Shown here: positions 21,096 to 59,692 of the stretch, in pieces
How the letters are laid out: every line of letters starts with the position of its first letter
Position numbering within the stretch: the stretch's first letter is position 1
Assembly: GCA_002742845.1 (NCBI GenBank)
Contig: DLUH01000005.1
Span: forward strand, 445,707-509,706
Length of the DNA: 64,000 nucleotides
Direction: 5' to 3'
Source: Sulfurovum sp. UBA12169
GTDB lineage: Bacteria; Campylobacterota; Campylobacteria; Campylobacterales; Sulfurovaceae
Position numbers and translations under genes: made by a program
The notes under the pieces: generated by a model
What the model was told of the DNA's origin: nothing
Seen by the model: only the letters and a program-made list of their open reading frames with translations
Databases searched by the model: none

Positions 21096-21148
21096 TGTTA
21101 TCAAATGGTCTCGTTTGTTATCAATATGTTACGCCTGTTATTTATGAT
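21096..21148 (+). promoter_or_regulatory. Double Pho box and -10 of the Ig-like lipoprotein operon
   Basis: Main box TGTTATC-AATA-TGTTACG (21116-21133), 9 bp, TATGAT (21143-21148). A further TGTTATC lies 20 bp upstream (21096-21102), about two helical turns away, with a poor second half-site. Confidence 0.75.
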
Positions 21149-24158: not shown

Positions 24159-24206
24159 TAACTGCAAAACCCCAATCATACAAATCCTTAAAAAATATTT
24201 TCATTC

Positions 24207-24239
24207 TGTAACCATTACGTTACAGGTTTTCATTAGAAT
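24207..24239 (+). promoter_or_regulatory. Pho box and -10 of the DUF3450-TonB system operon
   Basis: TGTAACC-ATTA-CGTTACA (24207-24224), 9 bp, TAGAAT (24234-24239). The predicted transcript starts about 24 nt before the DUF3450 gene. Confidence 0.75.
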
Positions 24240-32540: not shown

Positions 32541-32638
32541 TATACGTTTTCAATCAAATTTGAATACAATAGGCTAAGCGATATAAATAAGAGGATATAT
32601 TGATTGAAATAAGAAAAATTTTAAATTTTTGAATGGAT

Positions 32639-35632: not shown

Positions 35633-36313
35633 ATGAAAAAAAATATAGAAATCATTTTGATAGAAGACGAAGAGGATATTTTAGAATTGCTTGAGTATCA
35701 TCTTGCCAAAGAGGGATACGAGGTAACCGGTTTTCTCTCTACGGAAAATGTAGAACAGTTTTTAGAAGAAGAGAGTCCTTCGCTTATGATTGTAGACCGT
35801 AATCTTCCCGGGATGGAAGGGAGCGAATTTGTTTGCAAGTTGCGACAATTGGGCTATGAGATCCCTATTATTTTTTTAACCGCAAGGGATCAGGAAGGTG
35901 ATCTTGAGGAGGGATTTAGAAGCGGGGGCGATGACTATATAACAAAACCGTTTAGCATTAAAGAACTTTTGCTGCGAATAGAAGCATTACTCAGAAGAAG
36001 CGGTGCCACAACAAATAATACAGTCCGATACAAAGATATGATGCTCGATCTTCAAAAACATCAGCTTTTCATCAATGAAGAGCCTGTTGATCTAACCAAC
36101 TTGGAGTTTAGACTGCTTCATGCATTCATAAAAAATCCAAAACGGCCGCTAGACAGAGATTTTTTGCGAGACAAGGTGTGGGGGAACGACAGTGCAACCT
36201 TTCATGATAAAACGATCAATGTGGCACTCAATAGACTGAAGAAAAAAATAGATCCTATGAATAAAAAGAACTATTTTGCTCCTGTGTGGGGCATAGGATA
36301 TAAATTGCTTTAA
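35633..36313 (+). CDS. phoB: PhoB-type response regulator (OmpR family)
   Basis: 226 aa. Receiver domain with acidic pocket (LIEDEED), phosphoacceptor Asp55 (IVDRNLPG), Thr (FLTARD) and Lys (ITKPFS), then an OmpR/PhoB winged-helix domain (LTNLEFRLLHAFI, HDKTINVALNRLKKKI, GIGYKLL). The context, upstream of pstS with a Pho box in front, makes it the Pho regulator. No histidine kinase gene (phoR or phosS) is adjacent or anywhere in the window. ATG 35633 lacks an SD; the conserved N-terminus leaves no later start. Confidence 0.88.
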   Translation: MKKNIEIILIEDEEDILELLEYHLAKEGYEVTGFLSTENVEQFLEEESPSLMIVDRNLPGMEGSEFVCKLRQLGYEIPIIFLTARDQEGDLEEGFRSGGDDYITKPFSIKELLLRIEALLRRSGATTNNTVRYKDMMLDLQKHQLFINEEPVDLTNLEFRLLHAFIKNPKRPLDRDFLRDKVWGNDSATFHDKTINVALNRLKKKIDPMNKKNYFAPVWGIGYKLL

Positions 36314-36450: not shown

Positions 36451-36504
36451 TTCTAAACTATATTTTGGATTCAATAAATGAATTATTAAGAGGGCTCAAT
36501 TTTT

Positions 36505-36537
36505 TGTAATCAAAATGTTATCGACTTATTTTATACT
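36505..36537 (+). promoter_or_regulatory. Pho box and -10 of pstS
   Basis: TGTAATC-AAAA-TGTTATC (36505-36522), 9 bp, TATACT (36532-36537). One of the two best matches to the shared pattern. Confidence 0.85.
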
Positions 36538-36580
36538 TTACACAATCCAAACGGATAACCTATTTTCTCAAGGAAAACAC

Positions 36581-37582
36581 ATGACATTTAAAAAAGTAAT
36601 GACGACACTGGCGGCAGCGTCGTTTGTGCTTAGTGCCGCAAATGCCGACGAAATCAAAGGAAGAGGCGCATCGTTTCCCGGACCTGTGTATCAGGCATGG
36701 ACATCAGAATATTACAATGCAACCCAAAACCAAGTAAACTATACACCTACAGGATCCGGAGACGGGATCTCTTCAGCTTCAAAAAGAATGGTAGACTTTG
36801 GCGGATCAGACAGCCCTTTAAAATCAGAAATTCTTAAAAAAGCTAAACTATTTATGTTTCCTACAGTAATAGGCTCCATTACACTATCATACAATATTGA
36901 GGGAGTGAAAGACGGCGAACTAAAACTGAGCCGTGCGGCAATTTCTGCGATTTTTTCAGGGAAAGCATCTTTCTGGGATGATGAAATCATTGCAAAAGAC
37001 AATAAAGATCTTAAGCTTCCTCATGAGCCTATTACGGTAGCGGTTAGAGCAGATGAGTCAGGAACCACTTACAATTTTACCTATTTTTTAAATCAGATCG
37101 ATCCTTCATTCAAGGTAAGCAAACAGCCTACCTGGAAAGCTGCAAAATTGGTAGCAGGTAAATCAAATTCAGGCGTATCTGCAAATATCCAGCAGATTAA
37201 AAATTCTATCGGCTATATTGAATATTCTTATAAAATTAAGCTCGGATTGCCTGCGGCGCAGATAGAGAACAAAGAAGGCAAATTTATCGTTCCGACTTTA
37301 GAGTCTTTCCAGGATGCGGCAAAATATGCTACATGGTCACCTGAAAATGACTTTTATGCGGTTATCGGGGATCCTGCAGGTGCAACTTCCTATCCTATCG
37401 TAGCGGCAACATTCATTTTGCTTCCTTCGGAAAAAGCAGATACCAACAAAAAAGTCACAGCGTTTTTTGATTGGGTGTTTGCAAACGGAGACAAGGCGGC
37501 GGAAGAACTTGGATATGTACCGCTTCCCGCATCGACAAAAGATCAGATAAGAGCATATTGGGAAAACAAAAAGATCAAATAA
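36581..37582 (+). CDS. pstS: Phosphate-binding protein PstS
   Basis: 333 aa from ATG 36581 (AAGGAAAACAC upstream). Signal peptide cleaved near SAANADE. Ligand-site motifs of PstS: GRGASFPGPVYQAW, YTPTGSGDGISS (phosphate loop), FGGSDSPL, RADESGTTYNFTYFL and KSNSGVSANIQ. Periplasmic receptor for the Pst ABC importer. It has its own promoter and its own terminator, separated from pstC. Confidence 0.96.
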   Translation: MTFKKVMTTLAAASFVLSAANADEIKGRGASFPGPVYQAWTSEYYNATQNQVNYTPTGSGDGISSASKRMVDFGGSDSPLKSEILKKAKLFMFPTVIGSITLSYNIEGVKDGELKLSRAAISAIFSGKASFWDDEIIAKDNKDLKLPHEPITVAVRADESGTTYNFTYFLNQIDPSFKVSKQPTWKAAKLVAGKSNSGVSANIQQIKNSIGYIEYSYKIKLGLPAAQIENKEGKFIVPTLESFQDAAKYATWSPENDFYAVIGDPAGATSYPIVAATFILLPSEKADTNKKVTAFFDWVFANGDKAAEELGYVPLPASTKDQIRAYWENKKIK

Positions 37583-37597
37583 TTTTTCTCCTTCGAT

Positions 37598-37627
37598 ACA
37601 ATGGTGCAACGTCACCATTGTTTTTTT
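37598..37627 (+). terminator. Terminator between pstS and pstC
   Basis: ACAATGGTG (37598-37606) and CACCATTGT (37613-37621) form a 9-bp stem with a 6-nt loop, followed by a T-run to 37627. Its U-run touches the Pho box of pstC. Confidence 0.88.
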
Positions 37628-37659
37628 GTTATCAAAATGTAACCCTTTTCCTATAAAAT
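37627..37659 (+). promoter_or_regulatory. Pho box and -10 of pstCAB-phoU
   Basis: TGTTATC-AAAA-TGTAACC (37627-37644), 9 bp, TAAAAT (37654-37659). It allows pstCAB-phoU to be driven apart from pstS. Confidence 0.82.
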
Positions 37660-37686
37660 TCCCATAATTTAAAATTAAGGTTAAGC

Positions 37687-38541
37687 ATGAACGGAAAAGT
37701 CTTTAGGCAGCTCTCTTTGCTTTCTGCAACACTCACATTTTTCTTGCTGATCGGTATTTTTGCAATACTTTTTACCTATGCGCAGCAATCAATGCAAACA
37801 TTCGGCTTTGACTTTTTAACGATTGAACACTGGGAAACGGATGAAGATGGCTATGGCGGTATATTCGGAGGATGGGTGCCCATTGTCGGTACGCTTTTAA
37901 GTACGCTGATTGCCATGGCTATTGCCACTCCGCTAGCGATGGGAATTGCAATTTTTTTAACTGAAATAGCCCACAGTAATCTCGTCAAACCTGTTTCTAT
38001 GGCGATAGAGCTGCTTGCTGCTATCCCCAGCATTATTTATGGCATGTGGGGACTTTTTTATTTTGCTCCTATTATTCAAGAGTTGTTCGGCGGGAATGGT
38101 GTAGGATTGTTGACAGCAGGGGTCGTTTTGGCCATCATGATCCTTCCTTTTATGGCAGCGATCACCAAAGACGCAATGAATACAACACCGGGAATTCTTA
38201 AAGAGTCGGCCTATGCTATGGGAGCAACGACATTTGAAGTAATTAAAGATGTGGTGATGCCATATTCAAAAGCCGGCATTATTGGATCGGTTATACTGGC
38301 TCTGGGACGTGCGCTGGGTGAAACGATGGCTGTAGCCTTCTTGATAGGTTCAGTGATGAGCGTTGCGCAGAAGGTGACTGATTCAACTATCTCTATCCCT
38401 GTTTTGCTTGCCAACAATTTTTCCGAAGCGCAAGATTTGCAGCTTTCAAGTATGTACTATTTGGCGCTCATTCTTTTTGTTGTCAGTTTTGCCGTTATTT
38501 CTCTTGCGAAATTTTATTTTTTAAGAAGGGGAGTAAAATGA
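37687..38541 (+). CDS. pstC: Phosphate ABC transporter permease PstC
   Basis: 284 aa, six membrane helices. N-terminal segment LLIGIFAILFTYAQQS, periplasmic FGFDFLTIEHW, and the EAA-loop consensus with the glycine (ESAYAMGATTFEVIKDVVMP). Pairs with PstA. A short leader with AAGG precedes ATG 37687. Overlaps pstA by 4 bp. Confidence 0.95.
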   Translation: MNGKVFRQLSLLSATLTFFLLIGIFAILFTYAQQSMQTFGFDFLTIEHWETDEDGYGGIFGGWVPIVGTLLSTLIAMAIATPLAMGIAIFLTEIAHSNLVKPVSMAIELLAAIPSIIYGMWGLFYFAPIIQELFGGNGVGLLTAGVVLAIMILPFMAAITKDAMNTTPGILKESAYAMGATTFEVIKDVVMPYSKAGIIGSVILALGRALGETMAVAFLIGSVMSVAQKVTDSTISIPVLLANNFSEAQDLQLSSMYYLALILFVVSFAVISLAKFYFLRRGVK

Positions 38542-39353
38542 ACCGCTTGCTGCTCAATAAAGTGATTCTGCTGGTTTCAACCGCATCGGCAATCATAGGA
38601 ATAGGTTTTCTTTTTTGGATTTTGATTACTCTGGGCTATAAGGGGATAGACAGTATCTCGTTGACAACATTTACAAATGATTTGGTCAACGGGGGGATAC
38701 GAAATTTACTTGTAGGTCAGTTTACTATGGCGCTGATTGCTACGCTGATCGCGGTTCCTCTGGGTATGATGGCAGGTATCTATTTGCGAGAATATAGCGG
38801 AGGAGGGAAGCTTGCGATGGTGCTTCGAAACCTCAATGATGTGATGATGAGCGCGCCTTCTATTGTGATTGGGGTATTTGTTTATGCCTTTATGGTCGCA
38901 CCGTTTAATACTTATAATGGATGGGCAGGGAGTGCGGCTTTGGCTATCATGATGATTCCTATTATTGTCAACACCACCGACAACATGCTTTCCCTGGTGC
39001 CACAAGAACTCAGAGAGGCAGGTATTGCATTGGGCGGGAGCAGGCACAAGATTATCGTCCAAATTGTACTAAGGTCTGCAAAAACAGGAATAACTACAGG
39101 TATTTTGCTCTCTTTCGCACGTATTATCGGAGAAACTGCACCCTTGCTGTTTACCTCGGCAAACAATCAGTTTTTTACAATGGATATGAATGAGCAGTTT
39201 CCTTCTTTGACGGTCAGTATCTATAATCTGGCTACCTATCCGGATGAATCAAGCAGACAATTGGCGTGGGCCGCCTCATTTATTTTGACAGTGATCGTTT
39301 TGACAATCAATCTTTTGGGCCGCTATGCCACAAGAAACAAGAAAGGCAAATAA
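38538..39353 (+). CDS. pstA: Phosphate ABC transporter permease PstA
   Basis: 271 aa, six membrane helices and the EAA-type loop [20 protein letters not shown]. The periplasmic loop [24 protein letters not shown] and ISGGG-like turn match PstA. Second permease subunit; ATGA overlap with pstC; pstB starts 1 bp after the stop. Confidence 0.95.
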
Positions 39354-39354
39354 T

Positions 39355-40146
39355 ATGAAACAAAACATTATGGCTATGAAAGCAGAAAATCTTACTTTTA
39401 CCTATGCCGGAGCTGCGTCCTCCTCTTTAAACAGCGTGACCTTGCCGATCGAACGCAATAAAATCACTGCGCTGATAGGACCAAGCGGATGCGGCAAATC
39501 CACACTGCTTCGCTGCATGAACCGAATCCATGATGTATATCCGGGAAATAAGTATGAAGGGAAAATTACACTTCATACCGCGTCTGGAAAAAATCAAAAT
39601 GTACTAGAACTTAAGAAAGAGAATGAACTGATTGCGCTTCGTCAAACCGTAGGAATGATTTTTCAAAAGCCTACCCCTTTTCCTATGAGTATTTTTGATA
39701 ATGTGGCCTATGGCCTAAAACTTTCAGGCATCAAAAATAAAACTGAACTGCAAGACCGTGTAGAAAAAGCGCTTAAGGGCGCAGCGATATGGGAGGAAAC
39801 CAAGGATAGGCTGGGCGGGAGCGCAATGGGATTGAGCGGCGGACAGCAGCAAAGACTTTGTATTGCCCGAGCAGTAGCGCTTAAGCCTGAAGTGCTGCTT
39901 TTTGATGAGCCTACTTCGGCATTGGATCCTATCTCGACAGGAGCAATAGAAGAGTTGATTGCAGAGCTTAAATCGGAAATATCGGTGGCTATCGTGACTC
40001 ACAATATGCAGCAAGCCAGCCGATTGAGTGATTATACGGCATTTATGTATCTTGGCGAACTTATAGAATTTGACAAAACAGAATCGGTATTCCTCAATCC
40101 TTCCAATAAAATGACAGAGGATTACGTAACCGGCAGATTTGGATAA
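39355..40146 (+). CDS. pstB: Phosphate ABC transporter ATPase PstB
   Basis: 263 aa from ATG 39355 (AAGG and a TAATATG junction with pstA). Walker [11 protein letters not shown]-loop [15 protein letters not shown] signature [16 protein letters not shown], Walker [13 protein letters not shown], and H-loop [12 protein letters not shown]-loop QKPTPFP is typical of PstB. Energises phosphate import. phoU follows after 52 bp. Confidence 0.97.
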
Positions 40147-40198
40147 AAACACTGCTTTTTGCGTAAATTACATAACAACCAAATACCAAGGAGAATTG

Positions 40199-40861
40199 AT
40201 GCTAAGTATAGAAAATAAAGTTATACAGGTACGAGAAAAAACCGCTGCTGTATTGGAAGAGATGATGATTTCACAAAAGCTTGCCTTGCATGCATTGAGG
40301 GTCTGCGATGAACAAAGTTTTGAGCAGGCAAATATTCCTCTTGATTCAATCGATAAAAAAGTTGAAGAGATAGACAATCTTGTCTTGACAGCATTTGTAC
40401 GCTTTTCCCCCGAAGCAAAAGATCTCAGGGAGATGGTCGCATTTTTAAAGATTACTTCCTCTTTGCAGCGCATTGCATCGAACGAAACAAATTATATAAA
40501 AAATATGAAAATCTGTAATCCCAAGGCGGATCCGCAAATAAAACGTATCATAAAAGAATCTCTTTCGATCAATCAGTGCACGATTCAAGCCATGAATTAT
40601 ACGATTGAAATGATCCGTGAGACAGAAGACAAAAATAAACTTTTAGATCTTGAAAGCAAGATTGATGTGGAGTTTAGTAAAACAGACGATATCTATTCAA
40701 TGCTTGAAAAAGATGTGCTGCAAATCATGCATCAAACCCACGAAGTCAATGATGAATTTATCAATTTGCTTAAGTATATCAGAAAAAATATGAAGATTAT
40801 CGACAGGCTTCAGGATATTGCTTCCAAATTACTCTTTGCCAGAATTGGCGGCAAACTTTAA
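40199..40861 (+). CDS. phoU: PhoU-type phosphate signalling protein
   Basis: 220 aa, all helical, two PhoU three-helix repeats (DSIDKKVEEIDNLVL and ESKIDVEFSKTDDIYSML carry the metal-binding E/DxxxD motifs). Mediates signalling from the Pst complex to the kinase. ATG 40199 with SD AAGGAGAATTG. The 3' end overlaps the convergent patatin gene by 33 bp. Confidence 0.9.
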   Translation: MLSIENKVIQVREKTAAVLEEMMISQKLALHALRVCDEQSFEQANIPLDSIDKKVEEIDNLVLTAFVRFSPEAKDLREMVAFLKITSSLQRIASNETNYIKNMKICNPKADPQIKRIIKESLSINQCTIQAMNYTIEMIRETEDKNKLLDLESKIDVEFSKTDDIYSMLEKDVLQIMHQTHEVNDEFINLLKYIRKNMKIIDRLQDIASKLLFARIGGKL

Positions 40862-54005: not shown

Positions 54006-54611
54006 ATGAAAACTATAAAATACTTATGGCTGCTGATACTCTTTACCACTTCTTTTTCACCTCTCTTCTCGGCTTCGAAAGCAGAAATCAGCAGTATAAA
54101 AACAGCGGTTATTTTTAATACACTCTGTGCAAGGTGTCATGAGGGCCAATGCAGCGGGAGACTCAGTTACGACACGGGGAGCAGCACAGTGGTCAGGCAT
54201 ATAAAACGCTATGCAGAAGATGCAAACATTTCCAAAGAGGAGACAGAAGAGCTTTTTAACCTTTTAAATCACATGAAAACAGAGTGCGCATTGTGGATGC
54301 CGGATAACAGGAAGTGGGATTCAAAGAACCTTGCGTCTTTTGCCCTGTCTTCGGCCAAAGGTTATTTTATTCCTCTGGGCATTCTGAAAGAGGGCAAATA
54401 TCACGTCGAGATCAAGATAAAAGATAAGATTCTCTTCAAGGTTGAAGTCCTTTCAGATGATTTTGAGCATTATCTTTATGTATCGGTTTGTCCTGATGAA
54501 AAAGAAAAGACGCTTCAGTTTACGATAGACAAGCCCGCCAATATTTTTTTACGTATTCAAAGTATGGAGTCTTTGCAGATTATCGATCTGGAGATTAAAA
54601 AGGACAACTAG
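54006..54611 (+). CDS. Periplasmic c-type cytochrome with a beta domain
   Basis: 201 aa. Signal peptide (SFSPLFSASKA), heme motif CARCH (Cys41-His45) followed by a further Cys at 49, then helices and, after residue 100, a beta-rich tail (GYFIPLGILKEGKYHVEIKI). A monoheme carrier with an appended domain. No SD-perfect but ATG 54006 follows GAGGCAGATGTTAAG. Beside the cyt/PhoX pair but with no visible Pho box. Confidence 0.7.
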   Translation: MKTIKYLWLLILFTTSFSPLFSASKAEISSIKTAVIFNTLCARCHEGQCSGRLSYDTGSSTVVRHIKRYAEDANISKEETEELFNLLNHMKTECALWMPDNRKWDSKNLASFALSSAKGYFIPLGILKEGKYHVEIKIKDKILFKVEVLSDDFEHYLYVSVCPDEKEKTLQFTIDKPANIFLRIQSMESLQIIDLEIKKDN

Positions 54612-54806: not shown

Positions 54807-57761
54807 TTAATGCCCCAAATTTTCGTTTATTCTGCTTGTTGAAAAAATCCCTGTCGGCGTCATGATATTGTCTATCGTTTTGACAAGTTCCAGAGTTTCG
54901 TCGTCGTAAACTCTGATCTTGTCGTCGTCCCAATCGCTCACAAAAACATAATCCCCGTCGGCGTCGGGTTCGGGGTGCAGGGTATATGTTCCGTCTGTTA
55001 TTCTCTTGAGTACGTTAAACGGCGTAGTTTTTTCATGAACTGTGATCTCATTTTTTGAAGGCCCAAACATTGTGTCAAACCAAACATACTTCATCAGCGC
55101 CGTAGTCCTTGGATGCATTCCGCCGGCACTTGCGCTCACGCTTCCTAAAATTTCGAGGGTGTCCGGAGCGAAGATCGTATTTTTGCCCTCGCCCATATGG
55201 ACGATCGAAGTATATTTTTTCCCATCAACCTCCCATGTTGCTGCGGATCCAGGGTGAGGCATAAGCCCTGTTTGTAGTTTTGCTTTGATTTGCATCGTGT
55301 TTGTATCTATGGCGGCTAAATGATCGTAAGAGGCTACAAAATAGGTGGAATTATCGTTTGAAAAATATCCATCGTGGAGCATCTCTCCCACGTCGGTTGC
55401 TTTCGTGATTGCAAAAGAGGGATCGTTATAATCTATTTTCCAAACCTCTCCGCCCTCTTTCATCGCCAAAAAGAAAAATCCCTCTGTATCGTTGACCGAG
55501 CAAACTCTCGAATGTATATCACTTGAATTTATAAATTTTATAAATTCAAGTGTTTTCGCATCAAGGATGACCGCCCCCTTTGGAACATAAAGTCCTGCAA
55601 TCAAATATTTGCCGTCATTTGAAATCGCAATCCCCCTTGCATCAATCCCGACTCTTGTTTTGGTAGTAGCTTTGAGCGAATACAGGTCATATCTGTAAAG
55701 CCAGCCGTCTCTTCCAAGGTTGTAGGCAAATCTTCCGTCGGGGCTGAAAGTGTAGCCGTGTGCCCTGTATCCGGATTCAAACCTTCCGGCGATGCTTAGC
55801 GTATCGCCGTCGATGATCGCTATGCGCGAATAATCGCTCTCCGTCACAAGGAGCAAATCGCTCACCCTATGGGAGTGGATTGGGGCTGAAGGGAGGTTTG
55901 ATTCTTCTATTAAGACTGATCTTGAGGCATTGATGTCGCCCTCATTCCATTCATAGAGTTCGTGTGAAATATCAGCATACCATTTATCGCTCTTTGAGCC
56001 GTAGCTACTAAAATTTTTTGCCAAAATTTCGTCGGTGATTTCGTCATAAACATTTTTTACCGGCTCCAAAACAGTATCTCTGCCGTAAATAAAACTTTGC
56101 TCCCCCACGATTGTTTTATAAGCTTTATTTAGAACCAATGCCCTCTGCACAGACGGATACAATAGGTGCGAAATATCGGCGTGAAGGGTTTTTATCTCGT
56201 CGGCTTTCAAAATACCCTCTTCATTAAAAAACTTTTCGTAAGCCTCTTTGTTTTCTCTAAATTCATCAGCCCCGCCGGTTGTGTCAAGATAAACGCTAAA
56301 TTCATACGAGCCGTCTTCCATCACTCTTTCGGCGATTCCCTCAAGTCCTTTTTGGCTCCAGTGGCTCCACCCTTTTTGGAAAGCTTTATCGTCAAATTTG
56401 CGCTTGAATGCAAAAGTTCCGTCATCTGTGGCTCCGATCCCCGTATGGCAGCCGATACAAGATAGAGTCTCTTCATAAGTTTGTGGCCTTAAAAAGCCTT
56501 TTTCATCTTCGATAAATCCCTGATATGTCCATCCAAGACCGCCCATGAGACCATCTTCGCTGTTCCCTTCGACTTTTTTGAGCCTTTCAGGAAAATCGGC
56601 CTTTTCTTTTTCTTCGGCCATTACTGAGTTGAAAAGTTGCGGATATGTGCTCCAATATGTTTTTTTGCCGTATCGCAACTCTTTTAGCCGGGGGGAGAGT
56701 TTGGTTTTGTTTTGATCGTCAAAATCAACATATCGCACAGTATGCAAAAACTCGGTATTTTCAGGATAAAGCCCCGGCGCTATGTGGATTGCGTTTTTTT
56801 CAAGTTCTGTTTTTGCTTTTCCGACGTACGACATTGAAAAATCGTAATATTTCGAACCGTCATATTTTGGTGTGACCCATTTGTAAACGATTTTGTTGCT
56901 TTTGTCGAGTCTGCCGTTTTGGTTAAGGTCGACACCATAAAGATTTTCGTCTATTTCATCGATTGGGATATCTTTTCTTTTTATAAGGGCTTCAATGATT
57001 GCCAGGTTGATTTTGTAGATATTTATATCAAGCTCCCCTCGATTGTTTTGCATAAAAATTTCACCAAGCCGTATCAAAACATCATCCGTCGATCCGTTTG
57101 TAGGCCAAAAAGTTCCCAAAAAAGGATAATACGCAAACGCTCTCCATCCCGTATAGCCGCCGTCGTATTTTCTGTCAAACCCTTCGTTATCGAAATTGAA
57201 ATAACAATCGGGCGTATAGCCTCCCCATTTACCGTCCTGATTGTAATCCCATTGCGCAGGGGGATTTTGGAGTATTTGGGCAAGTTCGATCGAACCGTCT
57301 TCTTTTAAATAATTGTTTGTTCTAACGTATGAAAGAATTTCATCATCGTTTATTTGTGAAATTAAAGTGCTTTTGTCTTTGAAAAGATTTGACCACCTGT
57401 TTTTGAGGGCATATTCCGGAAATTCGTAGCTTGTCTGCAAATCGTCGTCGTTAAGGTAGTTTGGCTCTATTCCTTTTGTGTGACAGCTATAGCATGGGTT
57501 TAGGATGTTTCCTTTTTCATCCTCTTTTTTGGTGTAGCATTGGGAGGGGATATAAGCTGCTTCGTTTTCGACTATCGTGCGGCTGGTTAGATCTAAGAAT
57601 TGGCGTTCGCCGGTTTGATATGAACCGCTACTTTTGAAGGAGTATTGATCGGTTAGCTCTAAAGAATTTGTGTCCGAACCTTCGCTGCCGCATCCGATGG
57701 CGGCAAATAGCGTTCCTATCCCAAGCAAAGCCGGCAAAATAATAAAATTATTTCTTTTCAT
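54807..57761 (-). CDS. Diheme lipoprotein with C-terminal NirS-like d1 propeller, Pho-regulated
   Basis: 984 aa. Lipobox FAAIGC (Cys24). Two c-heme motifs, CYSCH (90-94) and CIGCH (435-439), in a long N-terminal part of about 620 aa. Residues about 630-975 look like the eight-bladed d1-type propeller of cytochrome cd1 nitrite reductase, NirN and NirF: GYTFSPDGR, GIDARGIAI, GRDGWLYRYD, TPTGIF at the end, with His668 (YRAHGYT), His796 (MLHDGY) and His836 (MPHPGS), the positions of the d1-ligand and the two active-site histidines. Whether heme d1 is bound is unknown. Starts from a Pho promoter divergent to the PhoX-like gene. Confidence 0.7.
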   Translation of the reverse strand: MKRNNFIILPALLGIGTLFAAIGCGSEGSDTNSLELTDQYSFKSSGSYQTGERQFLDLTSRTIVENEAAYIPSQCYTKKEDEKGNILNPCYSCHTKGIEPNYLNDDDLQTSYEFPEYALKNRWSNLFKDKSTLISQINDDEILSYVRTNNYLKEDGSIELAQILQNPPAQWDYNQDGKWGGYTPDCYFNFDNEGFDRKYDGGYTGWRAFAYYPFLGTFWPTNGSTDDVLIRLGEIFMQNNRGELDINIYKINLAIIEALIKRKDIPIDEIDENLYGVDLNQNGRLDKSNKIVYKWVTPKYDGSKYYDFSMSYVGKAKTELEKNAIHIAPGLYPENTEFLHTVRYVDFDDQNKTKLSPRLKELRYGKKTYWSTYPQLFNSVMAEEKEKADFPERLKKVEGNSEDGLMGGLGWTYQGFIEDEKGFLRPQTYEETLSCIGCHTGIGATDDGTFAFKRKFDDKAFQKGWSHWSQKGLEGIAERVMEDGSYEFSVYLDTTGGADEFRENKEAYEKFFNEEGILKADEIKTLHADISHLLYPSVQRALVLNKAYKTIVGEQSFIYGRDTVLEPVKNVYDEITDEILAKNFSSYGSKSDKWYADISHELYEWNEGDINASRSVLIEESNLPSAPIHSHRVSDLLLVTESDYSRIAIIDGDTLSIAGRFESGYRAHGYTFSPDGRFAYNLGRDGWLYRYDLYSLKATTKTRVGIDARGIAISNDGKYLIAGLYVPKGAVILDAKTLEFIKFINSSDIHSRVCSVNDTEGFFFLAMKEGGEVWKIDYNDPSFAITKATDVGEMLHDGYFSNDNSTYFVASYDHLAAIDTNTMQIKAKLQTGLMPHPGSAATWEVDGKKYTSIVHMGEGKNTIFAPDTLEILGSVSASAGGMHPRTTALMKYVWFDTMFGPSKNEITVHEKTTPFNVLKRITDGTYTLHPEPDADGDYVFVSDWDDDKIRVYDDETLELVKTIDNIMTPTGIFSTSRINENLGH

Positions 57762-57823: not shown

Positions 57824-57838
57824 TTTGCTGCTTGAAAT

Positions 57839-57871
57839 TGTAGTCAAAAAGTAATTTTTTATTTGTAAATT
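57839..57871 (+). promoter_or_regulatory. Pho-type box and -10 for the PhoX-like gene
   Basis: TGTAGTC-AAAA-AGTAATT (57839-57856), 9 bp, TAAATT (57866-57871). One G and two T deviations from the consensus, same spacing. Confidence 0.6.
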
Positions 57872-57904: not shown

Positions 57905-59692
57905 GTGAGAAAACATATATCTATAATTGCGGCAGCTTCAATAGCTGCCATGTTAAGCGGATGCGGAGATACAGGAAGCGATGATTCGGTTACAGTAGCC
58001 ACTGCCACAAATCCGCAAGAGACGATTTCAGGAACAAATACGGTTTCTTTTACATCGATCCCAACCCCTACAACCGACGCTCAAAAACTAACTTTGCAGC
58101 ATTCGGAAACGGTAACGATTAACGGCACGGTAAAACCTATCGATTTTTCGGTCATTATGGCAACAGACACAGCCGATAACGGCGAAATTTTTGGCCAAGC
58201 AAAAGATCAAAATGATCAGCCTATAACTTTTGCTGACGGAAGTCCGTATATTTGCAACGGAACAAACGACGGGGTGGGATCGGGGCTTGATTTTTCATCG
58301 ATTTTGCAAAAAAACGGCAAACTTTACATGGTAAGCCAGTTTGAGTGTCAAATCGGTGCCATGTATAAATTTGAGCTTAACCAGGACACGACAACCGGAG
58401 CGTTAAGTGCAAAACCGGGAACGCTTGAATTTGTCAGCCAAAAAGATGAATTTGGCGGATTTGTCCACTGTGCCGGACAGGCAACCCCATGGAATTCGCA
58501 CCTTGGATCAGAAGAGTACGAAACGGACGCCAGAATGGTGGAAGAGACTGCCGGAGCCGACGGCAAAACCGGAGATATTTATTACGATGAAACGGCTAAA
58601 TTTTTTGGCGGAGATGCAACAAAATTAAGTCCTTATTTTTACGGCTGGAGCCCGGAGGTGAAAATCGGAGCCGACGGTAAAGCAGTTTATGCAAAACATT
58701 ATGCAATGGGGCGTTTTTCTCATGAGCTTTCGTTTGTAATGCCCGATAAAAAAACCGTATATATGTCGGATGACGGCACCAACGTAGGTCTTTTTATGTT
58801 TAAGGCCGACAAGGAAGAGGATTTAAGTGCCGGAACTTTATATGCTGCAAAATTCATCCAAACAAGCACTGAAAATGGCGGAACTTTTACGGTTGAATGG
58901 ATCGAGCTTGCCCATTTAAATGATTCTGCAGTTAGGGCTGAGGTTACAAAAATGCCGAAATTTTCGAATCTTTTTGATGCAGTCGATCCGGTTGATGGTG
59001 TTTGTGCCGAGGGTTATACCTCTGTCAATACCTCTTGGGGACATGAGTGTTTGAAGGTAAAAGCAGGCATAAGCGAAAGTACTGTTGCCGCCCTTGAAAC
59101 CAGAAGATATGCGGCGATGAAAGGGGCTACGACGGAGCTTAGAAAAGAGGAAGGCATTTCTTATGATCCGGTGCGTAAAAAGCTTTATGTAGCTATGAGC
59201 GAAATTGATAAAGGGATGCTTGACAATGGGACCGGCAAATATGACATTGGCGGCCCAAACCATATTAAACTCTCAAAAAATGTTTGCGGAGCGGTTTATG
59301 AGTTTAGTGTTAACGAATCTATGATTACTACTGATATGCAAGCGGTTGTTTTGGGTGAAACGATAGAAACAGATGCCAACGGCAATAAATGCCACCTCGA
59401 TAAAATTTCAAATCCGGACAACGTAACAATGTTGCCCGGAACTGATATTTTGATGATCGGCGAAGATACAAGCAGTCATGAAAACAATATTATCTGGGCT
59501 TTTAATACCCAAACAAAACAGCTTGATAGGGTTATTGCGACTTCAAGAGGTGCTGAAACTACATCGCCGTTTTGGTATACAAATGTAAACGGCTGGGGTT
59601 ATATGACGGCTGTCACTCAGCATCCAGACGCAGATGCCGCCGAGACGGGGCAATCAACGGTGGGAGTTTTAGGGCCGATCAAGTTTAAATAA
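57905..59692 (+). CDS. phoX: PhoX-like (DUF839) lipoprotein, probable alkaline phosphatase
   Basis: 595 aa starting at GTG 57905 (SD AGGAG 5 nt upstream). Lipobox LSGC (Cys20). DUF839/PhoX stretches: CAGQATPWNSHLGSEEYE, GRFSHELSFVMPDKKTVYMSDDG, GISYDPVRKKLYVAMSE, NPDNVTMLPG and LMIGEDTSSHENN. Hydrolyses phosphomonoesters in PhoX of other bacteria with Ca and Fe. The motif that carries the iron-binding Cys in classical PhoX (TCEE) is GSEE here, so catalysis might differ or be lost. Pho box upstream fits scavenging. Confidence 0.78.
   Translation: MRKHISIIAAASIAAMLSGCGDTGSDDSVTVATATNPQETISGTNTVSFTSIPTPTTDAQKLTLQHSETVTINGTVKPIDFSVIMATDTADNGEIFGQAKDQNDQPITFADGSPYICNGTNDGVGSGLDFSSILQKNGKLYMVSQFECQIGAMYKFELNQDTTTGALSAKPGTLEFVSQKDEFGGFVHCAGQATPWNSHLGSEEYETDARMVEETAGADGKTGDIYYDETAKFFGGDATKLSPYFYGWSPEVKIGADGKAVYAKHYAMGRFSHELSFVMPDKKTVYMSDDGTNVGLFMFKADKEEDLSAGTLYAAKFIQTSTENGGTFTVEWIELAHLNDSAVRAEVTKMPKFSNLFDAVDPVDGVCAEGYTSVNTSWGHECLKVKAGISESTVAALETRRYAAMKGATTELRKEEGISYDPVRKKLYVAMSEIDKGMLDNGTGKYDIGGPNHIKLSKNVCGAVYEFSVNESMITTDMQAVVLGETIETDANGNKCHLDKISNPDNVTMLPGTDILMIGEDTSSHENNIIWAFNTQTKQLDRVIATSRGAETTSPFWYTNVNGWGYMTAVTQHPDADAAETGQSTVGVLGPIKFK

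Follow-up and report, generated by a model that had tools for sequence, protein, structure and literature searches.

A PhoX-linked diheme lipoprotein fused to a cytochrome d1-type propeller in Sulfurovum

To our knowledge, heme d1 is known only from NirS and from the proteins that make it. In Pseudomonas aeruginosa NirS the carboxylates of heme d1 are contacted by Arg156, Arg198 and Arg372 (PMC7278500), and a C1-C2-NirS fusion in which NirS is joined to extra c-type domains has been described in Chloroflexi (PMC8756737). The other relevant precedent comes from Flavobacterium, where a PhoX lipoprotein is encoded together with a MauG-like diheme protein (Fjoh_2478/Fjoh_2477); both are repressed by inorganic phosphate and made at low phosphate, the PhoX was inactive alone in P. 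putida, and the authors propose that the partner makes a cofactor (PMC8812569, PMC8115612).

We describe here a gene in a 64,000-nucleotide stretch of Sulfurovum sp. UBA12169 (contig DLUH01000005.1; hereafter the window) that joins a diheme lipoprotein module to a d1 propeller (Table 1). A preliminary description of this DNA had claimed two CxxCH motifs, which are present at residues 90 and 435, together with H668 in YRAHGYT, H796 in MLHDGY, H836 in MPHPGS and a closing TPTGIF, all of which were found. Full-length fusions occur in four genomes, three of them Sulfurovum-like and one a MAG labelled Sulfurimonas. Among 100 relatives the full-length gene is present only in G000, G034 and G037, and a one-genome-per-species scan for near relatives added the copy of Sulfurimonas sp. 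BM502 (the MAG; about 76% identity over most of its length). The copies in two related genomes are 93–94% identical to that of the window and the third is about 76% identical overall; the lipobox-like ending can be read likewise in fusion-locus copies L051-L053. Estimates of dN/dS from three close copies are 0.10–0.19 over both halves of the fusion and 0.12–0.19 for the d1 part. Judged from these comparisons of sequence, the fusion gene is real, under purifying selection and rare. The BM502 copy has an in-frame TAA after about 130 codons (L053:8361-8363), possibly a sequencing error. Tail-to-tail with the fusion gene lies a gene for a small CxxCH protein (54006-54611, plus strand), which is in the same place in G034 and G037 and absent from the BM502 locus, and whose product is a possible electron partner of the fusion.

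Table 1. Features of the fusion locus and of the phosphate genes in the window (residue numbers are those of the fusion protein).
Feature	Position	Strand	Basis or remark
PhoB-like regulator	35633-36313		alongside pst operon
PhoB box before pstS	36504..36521	+	box scan
pstS-pstC-pstA-pstB-phoU	36515..40861	+	gene calls in window
Fusion gene, diheme lipoprotein + d1 propeller, 984 aa	54807..57761	-	ORF intact, ATG start
Signal peptide, residues 1-24, lipobox-like end ..AAIGC24	57690..57761	-	direct reading of sequence
Diheme module, residues 56-578	56028..57596	-	homologous to stand-alone PhoX-linked lipoproteins of ~540-650 aa
First heme c site CYSCH, residues 90-94	57480..57494	-	invariant across diheme family
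Invariant His340 (TEFLH), candidate heme ligand	56742..56744	-	family alignments
Weak cytochrome P460-like stretch, residues 377-446, around second heme	56424..56633	-	Pfam, hhalign
Second heme c site CIGCH, residues 435-439	56445..56459	-	invariant across diheme family
Linker, residues 603-625	55887..55955	-	homologous to c-to-d1 linker of NirN/NirS
d1 propeller, residues 634-977	54831..55862	-	Pfam PF02239, phmmer vs PDB, model, Foldseek
His668, proximal heme d1 ligand position (P. aeruginosa NirS His182)	55758..55760	-	alignment
Arg684, heme d1 carboxylate contact (P. aeruginosa NirS Arg198)	55710..55712	-	alignment
His796, NirS active-site His327; Asp in NirN	55374..55376	-	alignment
His836, NirS active-site His369	55254..55256	-	alignment
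Weak PhoB-box-like site TTGTAGT-CAAA-AAGTAAT, fusion/phoX intergenic	57838..57855	+	points toward phoX
PhoX-family lipoprotein, 595 aa, divergent partner of fusion	57905..59692	+	PF05787 E=9.7e-24; PhoX Cys, Glu motifs kept

The N-terminal 600 residues, regarded at first as unusual, belong instead to a recurrent and unnamed family of diheme lipoproteins that is linked to PhoX and stands alone elsewhere. Without a d1 domain the module is found in about 20 genomes among the 100 relatives (53–60% identity) and on Pseudoalteromonas plasmids (36–38%), and 37 of the 397 genomes in a sample of the phylum Campylobacterota carry it, two of the 37 as part of a fusion. At both CxxCH motifs and at His340, conservation across the family alignment reaches 95% or more, and an alignment of 15 members shows no variation at them. 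A PhoX-family gene lies within about 2.3 kb of 38 of the 39 stand-alone copies whose gene context could be used, in most cases immediately upstream and on the same strand, and phoX adjoins the fusion in all four genomes in divergent orientation. Aligned with P. fluorescens PhoX, these proteins retain the Cys and Glu-Glu motifs and, in most cases, the His-Glu motif, residues that bind metal in the P. fluorescens protein; a lipoprotein-like signal stands at the N-terminus of most of them. PhoX-family proteins of about 1170–1270 residues also adjoin the diheme gene (L039:10595-14101, which starts with GTDGIDG-type repeats, L146:1698-5414 and L149:6313-10116), and in G051 a second, longer diheme paralogue of 683 residues (L040:2231-4282) lies between phoX and the diheme gene, with proteins of 620–700 residues resembling it in G001, G026 and G028.

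A resemblance to cytochrome P460 near the second heme is weak, being partial and mostly sub-threshold, and our main explanation does not draw on it. Every one of the 15 family members reaches E<=0.1 against PF16694 (lowest value 7.5e-7), in each case over part of the profile, with the fusion at 21.8–23.6 bits and some relatives at 27.3–27.6 bits against a cut-off of 27 bits; hhalign to P460 gives a probability of 68% over 41 columns, and in a manual comparison, by eye, His340 sits where P460 proteins have the Lys of PEGSKIVK. None of the 15 members matches the MauG/CCP profile PF03150 at E<=0.1, PDB searches with the diheme module returned nothing meaningful, and the N-terminal region of the fusion has no match above cut-off to a cytochrome c domain in Pfam.

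For the family, the evidence bears out the Pho control that the preliminary description assigned to this gene; the box beside the fusion itself is weak and faces phoX. Good PhoB boxes precede the stand-alone PhoX-diheme units of G011, G005, G012 and Pseudoalteromonas (p<=0.007), other stand-alone units being without one, and in the window, where the locus is accompanied by pstSCAB and phoB, good boxes precede pstS, phoB and a porin; besides the pstS box, boxes lie at 32638 and 35592. The box model was trained on the boxes of relatives and on the window's own pst-type boxes, with the intergenic site excluded; this site scores 10.3, where the training boxes score 13.3–22.2 (p about 0.02 in comparison with shuffled sequence), and is kept in G034 and G037. 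No E. coli-type Pho box was found beside the fusion. Because of the relatives' boxes and the pst operon, phosphate regulation of the fusion appears likely even with a weak site of its own, although we infer this control rather than observe it, and the PhoX-fusion unit is probably made under phosphate limitation. Strong PhoB-box-like sites on the plus strand also precede a lipoprotein gene (21115-21132) and a TonB/ExbB-like gene set (24206-24223), which suggests that a TonB system may belong to the Pho regulon.

The assignment of the C-terminal third to the d1 propellers is far beyond chance, as judged by the Pfam and phmmer E-values. PF02239 (Cytochrom_D1) matches with E=1.1e-68 and 231.9 bits against a cut-off of 25.5, spanning profile positions 4–367 of 368, and phmmer searches of the PDB return NirN (6rtd, 1.6e-47), P. 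aeruginosa NirS (1bl9, 1.3e-26) and NirF (6tv2, 1.5e-21). The phmmer alignments begin at query residue 603–604, which is the basis for the homology of the linker. A model of the propeller built from four sequences (pLDDT 71, pTM 0.72) has NirN, NirS and NirF as its best Foldseek matches, with NirN 6rte on top at TM 0.83, NirS entries at 0.79–0.83, NirF at 0.76, and an overall range to the three of 0.76–0.84. The preliminary description held that a generic YVTN propeller as best match, lacking a cavity at the three histidines, would count against it; the first such propeller, YVTN 1l0q, reaches only TM 0.58, far behind NirN, and as far as the modelled fold is concerned the propeller does not appear to be of the generic kind. 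In a full-length model from five sequences the diheme half has a pLDDT of about 25, and residues 1–630 of that model are uninformative.

In a tree of d1 domains the fusions split off as a deep branch of their own, as do NirF, NirN, canonical NirS, the Campylobacterota NirS-like proteins and a haloarchaeal sequence. Support for the fusion branch is 100/100, it is without a resolved sister, and the tree places it in none of the NirS, NirN and NirF clades. As a separate deep branch, the d1 part gives no grounds for inferring nitrite reduction by orthology. Derivation of the d1 part from the NirS copies of the same genome was considered and discarded, the tree grouping it with neither copy. The Campylobacterota NirS-like branch (L032:9704-11464 and relatives, including L024, L029 and L101) stands apart from the canonical NirS of Pseudomonas, Roseibium and Azospirillum.

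The three histidines that the preliminary description took for the d1 ligand and two active-site residues do align with NirS His182, His327 and His369, and they are kept in all four fusions, including the copy that is about 76% identical overall. Of the three NirS arginines that contact the carboxylates only Arg198 is kept, the Arg156 and Arg372 positions being occupied by Ser642 and Ser839. The pocket thus mixes features of the two proteins, with the His triad of NirS and, at the Arg372 position, Ser as in NirN; NirF has neither LHDG nor PHPG. Genes for making heme d1 are also at hand, and the genome encodes NirJ, NirF, SUMT and an AhbA/AhbB-type decarboxylase, the biosynthesis genes whose presence had been proposed as a check, as well as two NirS-type proteins and a cytochrome resembling NirC. 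Each of the four fusion genomes has NirF and one or more further NirS-type genes, the NirS-type gene of BM502 being split. The reading of the protein as d1-derived and probably d1-binding is supported by the conserved triad, the NirN/NirS/NirF-like fold and the heme d1 genes, and we consider it quite probable that the propeller binds heme d1. One NirS-type protein, of 640 residues (L031:9228-11147, G000 contig C1), is of canonical type with two cytochrome c domains before d1; this c-c-d1 form is found in G000, G034 and G037 and groups with NirS in the tree, and a layout resembling it has been reported as unique to Chloroflexi (PMC8756737).

We propose, as the most economical reading, that the fusion arose by a domain swap: a NirS/NirN-like protein would have exchanged its cytochrome c domain for the PhoX-linked diheme module and retained the linker. 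With propeller and linker attached at its C-terminus, the two-heme module occupies the place that in NirS belongs to a single cytochrome c domain. The two c hemes and heme d1 would exchange electrons, and the diheme module would service PhoX, for instance through oxidative maturation or by holding the iron of PhoX in the ferric state. The d1 domain would act as an anaerobic electron sink, with electrons dumped on nitrite in these denitrifying-type genomes. To this explanation as a whole, in which a redox-active d1 domain works together with a diheme module that services PhoX, we give a probability of roughly 0.45, and each step beyond the linkage of the diheme module to PhoX is one that we infer. 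As to its parts, the notion that the propeller is a redox catalyst, acting most likely on nitrite or NO and in electron exchange with both c-type hemes, falls a little short of an even chance, and the notion that the diheme module serves PhoX with the d1 domain as its anaerobic electron sink is doubtful. The most specific version, in which the d1 domain reduces nitrite or NO, draws its electrons through a possibly P460-like diheme module and so matures PhoX or keeps its iron ferric under anoxia, is unlikely.

Several other explanations are plausible to different degrees. The protein could be a variant respiratory cd1-like nitrite reductase, with the diheme module as electron entry and a position beside phoX that is inherited and carries no role in PhoX function. 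The active-site motifs LHDG and PHPG, shared with NirS, the NirS/NirN-type linker and the markers of d1 biosynthesis in all four fusion genomes are in keeping with such an enzyme, but the same genomes already have one or two NirS-type proteins, the fusion is beside phoX in four of four, and the linkage of the module to PhoX crosses phyla, so that we regard it as rather unlikely. It is improbable that the propeller has lost heme d1 and become a structural, binding or sensory domain: although two of the three arginine contacts are gone and the d1 part is on its own deep branch, the proximal and both active-site histidines persist in every fusion, dN/dS is low, and generic propellers fit the model much worse. 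Distinctly improbable is a NirN/NirF-type biosynthesis or carrier protein that stores or finishes heme d1, since the NirN Asp is replaced by His796, the gene is away from the nir cluster and beside phoX, and the fusion falls outside the NirN clade, even though NirN is the top single match by sequence and fold and shares the Ser at the Arg372 position. An assembly artefact or neutral read-through, which might be suspected with three relatives that are MAGs, a window genome that is possibly one too, and an early stop in the L053 copy, is discarded as very remote, given the recurrence of the identical junction and the divergent phoX in four separate assemblies, one of a distinctly diverged lineage, and purifying selection on both halves.

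A separate d1 branch joined to a PhoX partner would be a new setting for heme d1, and a redox d1 domain coupled to a PhoX-servicing module would link the chemistry of denitrification to phosphorus scavenging. If true, servicing of PhoX driven by nitrite or NO would give heme d1 its first function beyond denitrification and the making of heme d1 itself. Apart from the fusion, a widespread and unnamed diheme lipoprotein travels with PhoX-family lipoproteins, and this family bears on the inactivity of some PhoX lipoproteins that are expressed on their own (PMC8812569).

Compared with NirS (PDB 1nir, 1bl9, 1aof), the fusion shares the fold, the linker and the positions of His182, His327, His369 and Arg198, but NirS has a single cytochrome c domain of its own where the fusion has the diheme lipoprotein module, Arg156 and Arg372 are lost in the fusion, and the two are on separate branches of the tree. 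NirN (dihydro-heme d1 dehydrogenase; PDB 6rtd, 6rte) is closest in sequence and fold, with 31% identity in the Foldseek match and the PH-x-GS motif in common; it differs in the Asp at His796, in the absence of a diheme N-terminal module and in forming a separate clade. NirF is a single-domain propeller without c-type heme and in its own clade, whereas the fusion has two CxxCH motifs and lies on another branch. The PhoX-linked diheme lipoproteins that stand alone in Campylobacterota and Pseudoalteromonas (e.g. WP_308363490.1) lack the d1 domain, but are homologous to residues 56–578 at 36–60% identity and share both CxxCH motifs and His340. The Chloroflexi C1-C2-NirS resembles the fusion in having a d1 reductase joined to an extra c-type cytochrome region, but there cytochrome c domains precede a true NirS and a PhoX-partner module is absent. 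The Flavobacterium pair is similar in combining a PhoX-like lipoprotein with a c-type diheme protein under phosphate regulation, and by analogy the diheme module of the fusion could take the corresponding role and oxidise PhoX or its iron; the Flavobacterium partner, however, is a PF03150 (MauG/CCP) protein with no d1 domain reported, and because the diheme family is without a Pfam CCP_MauG match the parallel is an analogy only. In the literature searched, which was mostly that available without subscription, we found no system joining d1 to a lipoprotein or multiheme protein, or PhoX to a diheme protein, other than these two. The preliminary description knew of no described system with this combination, and for a d1 domain with a PhoX partner this stands, while partial precedents exist in Flavobacterium and Chloroflexi.
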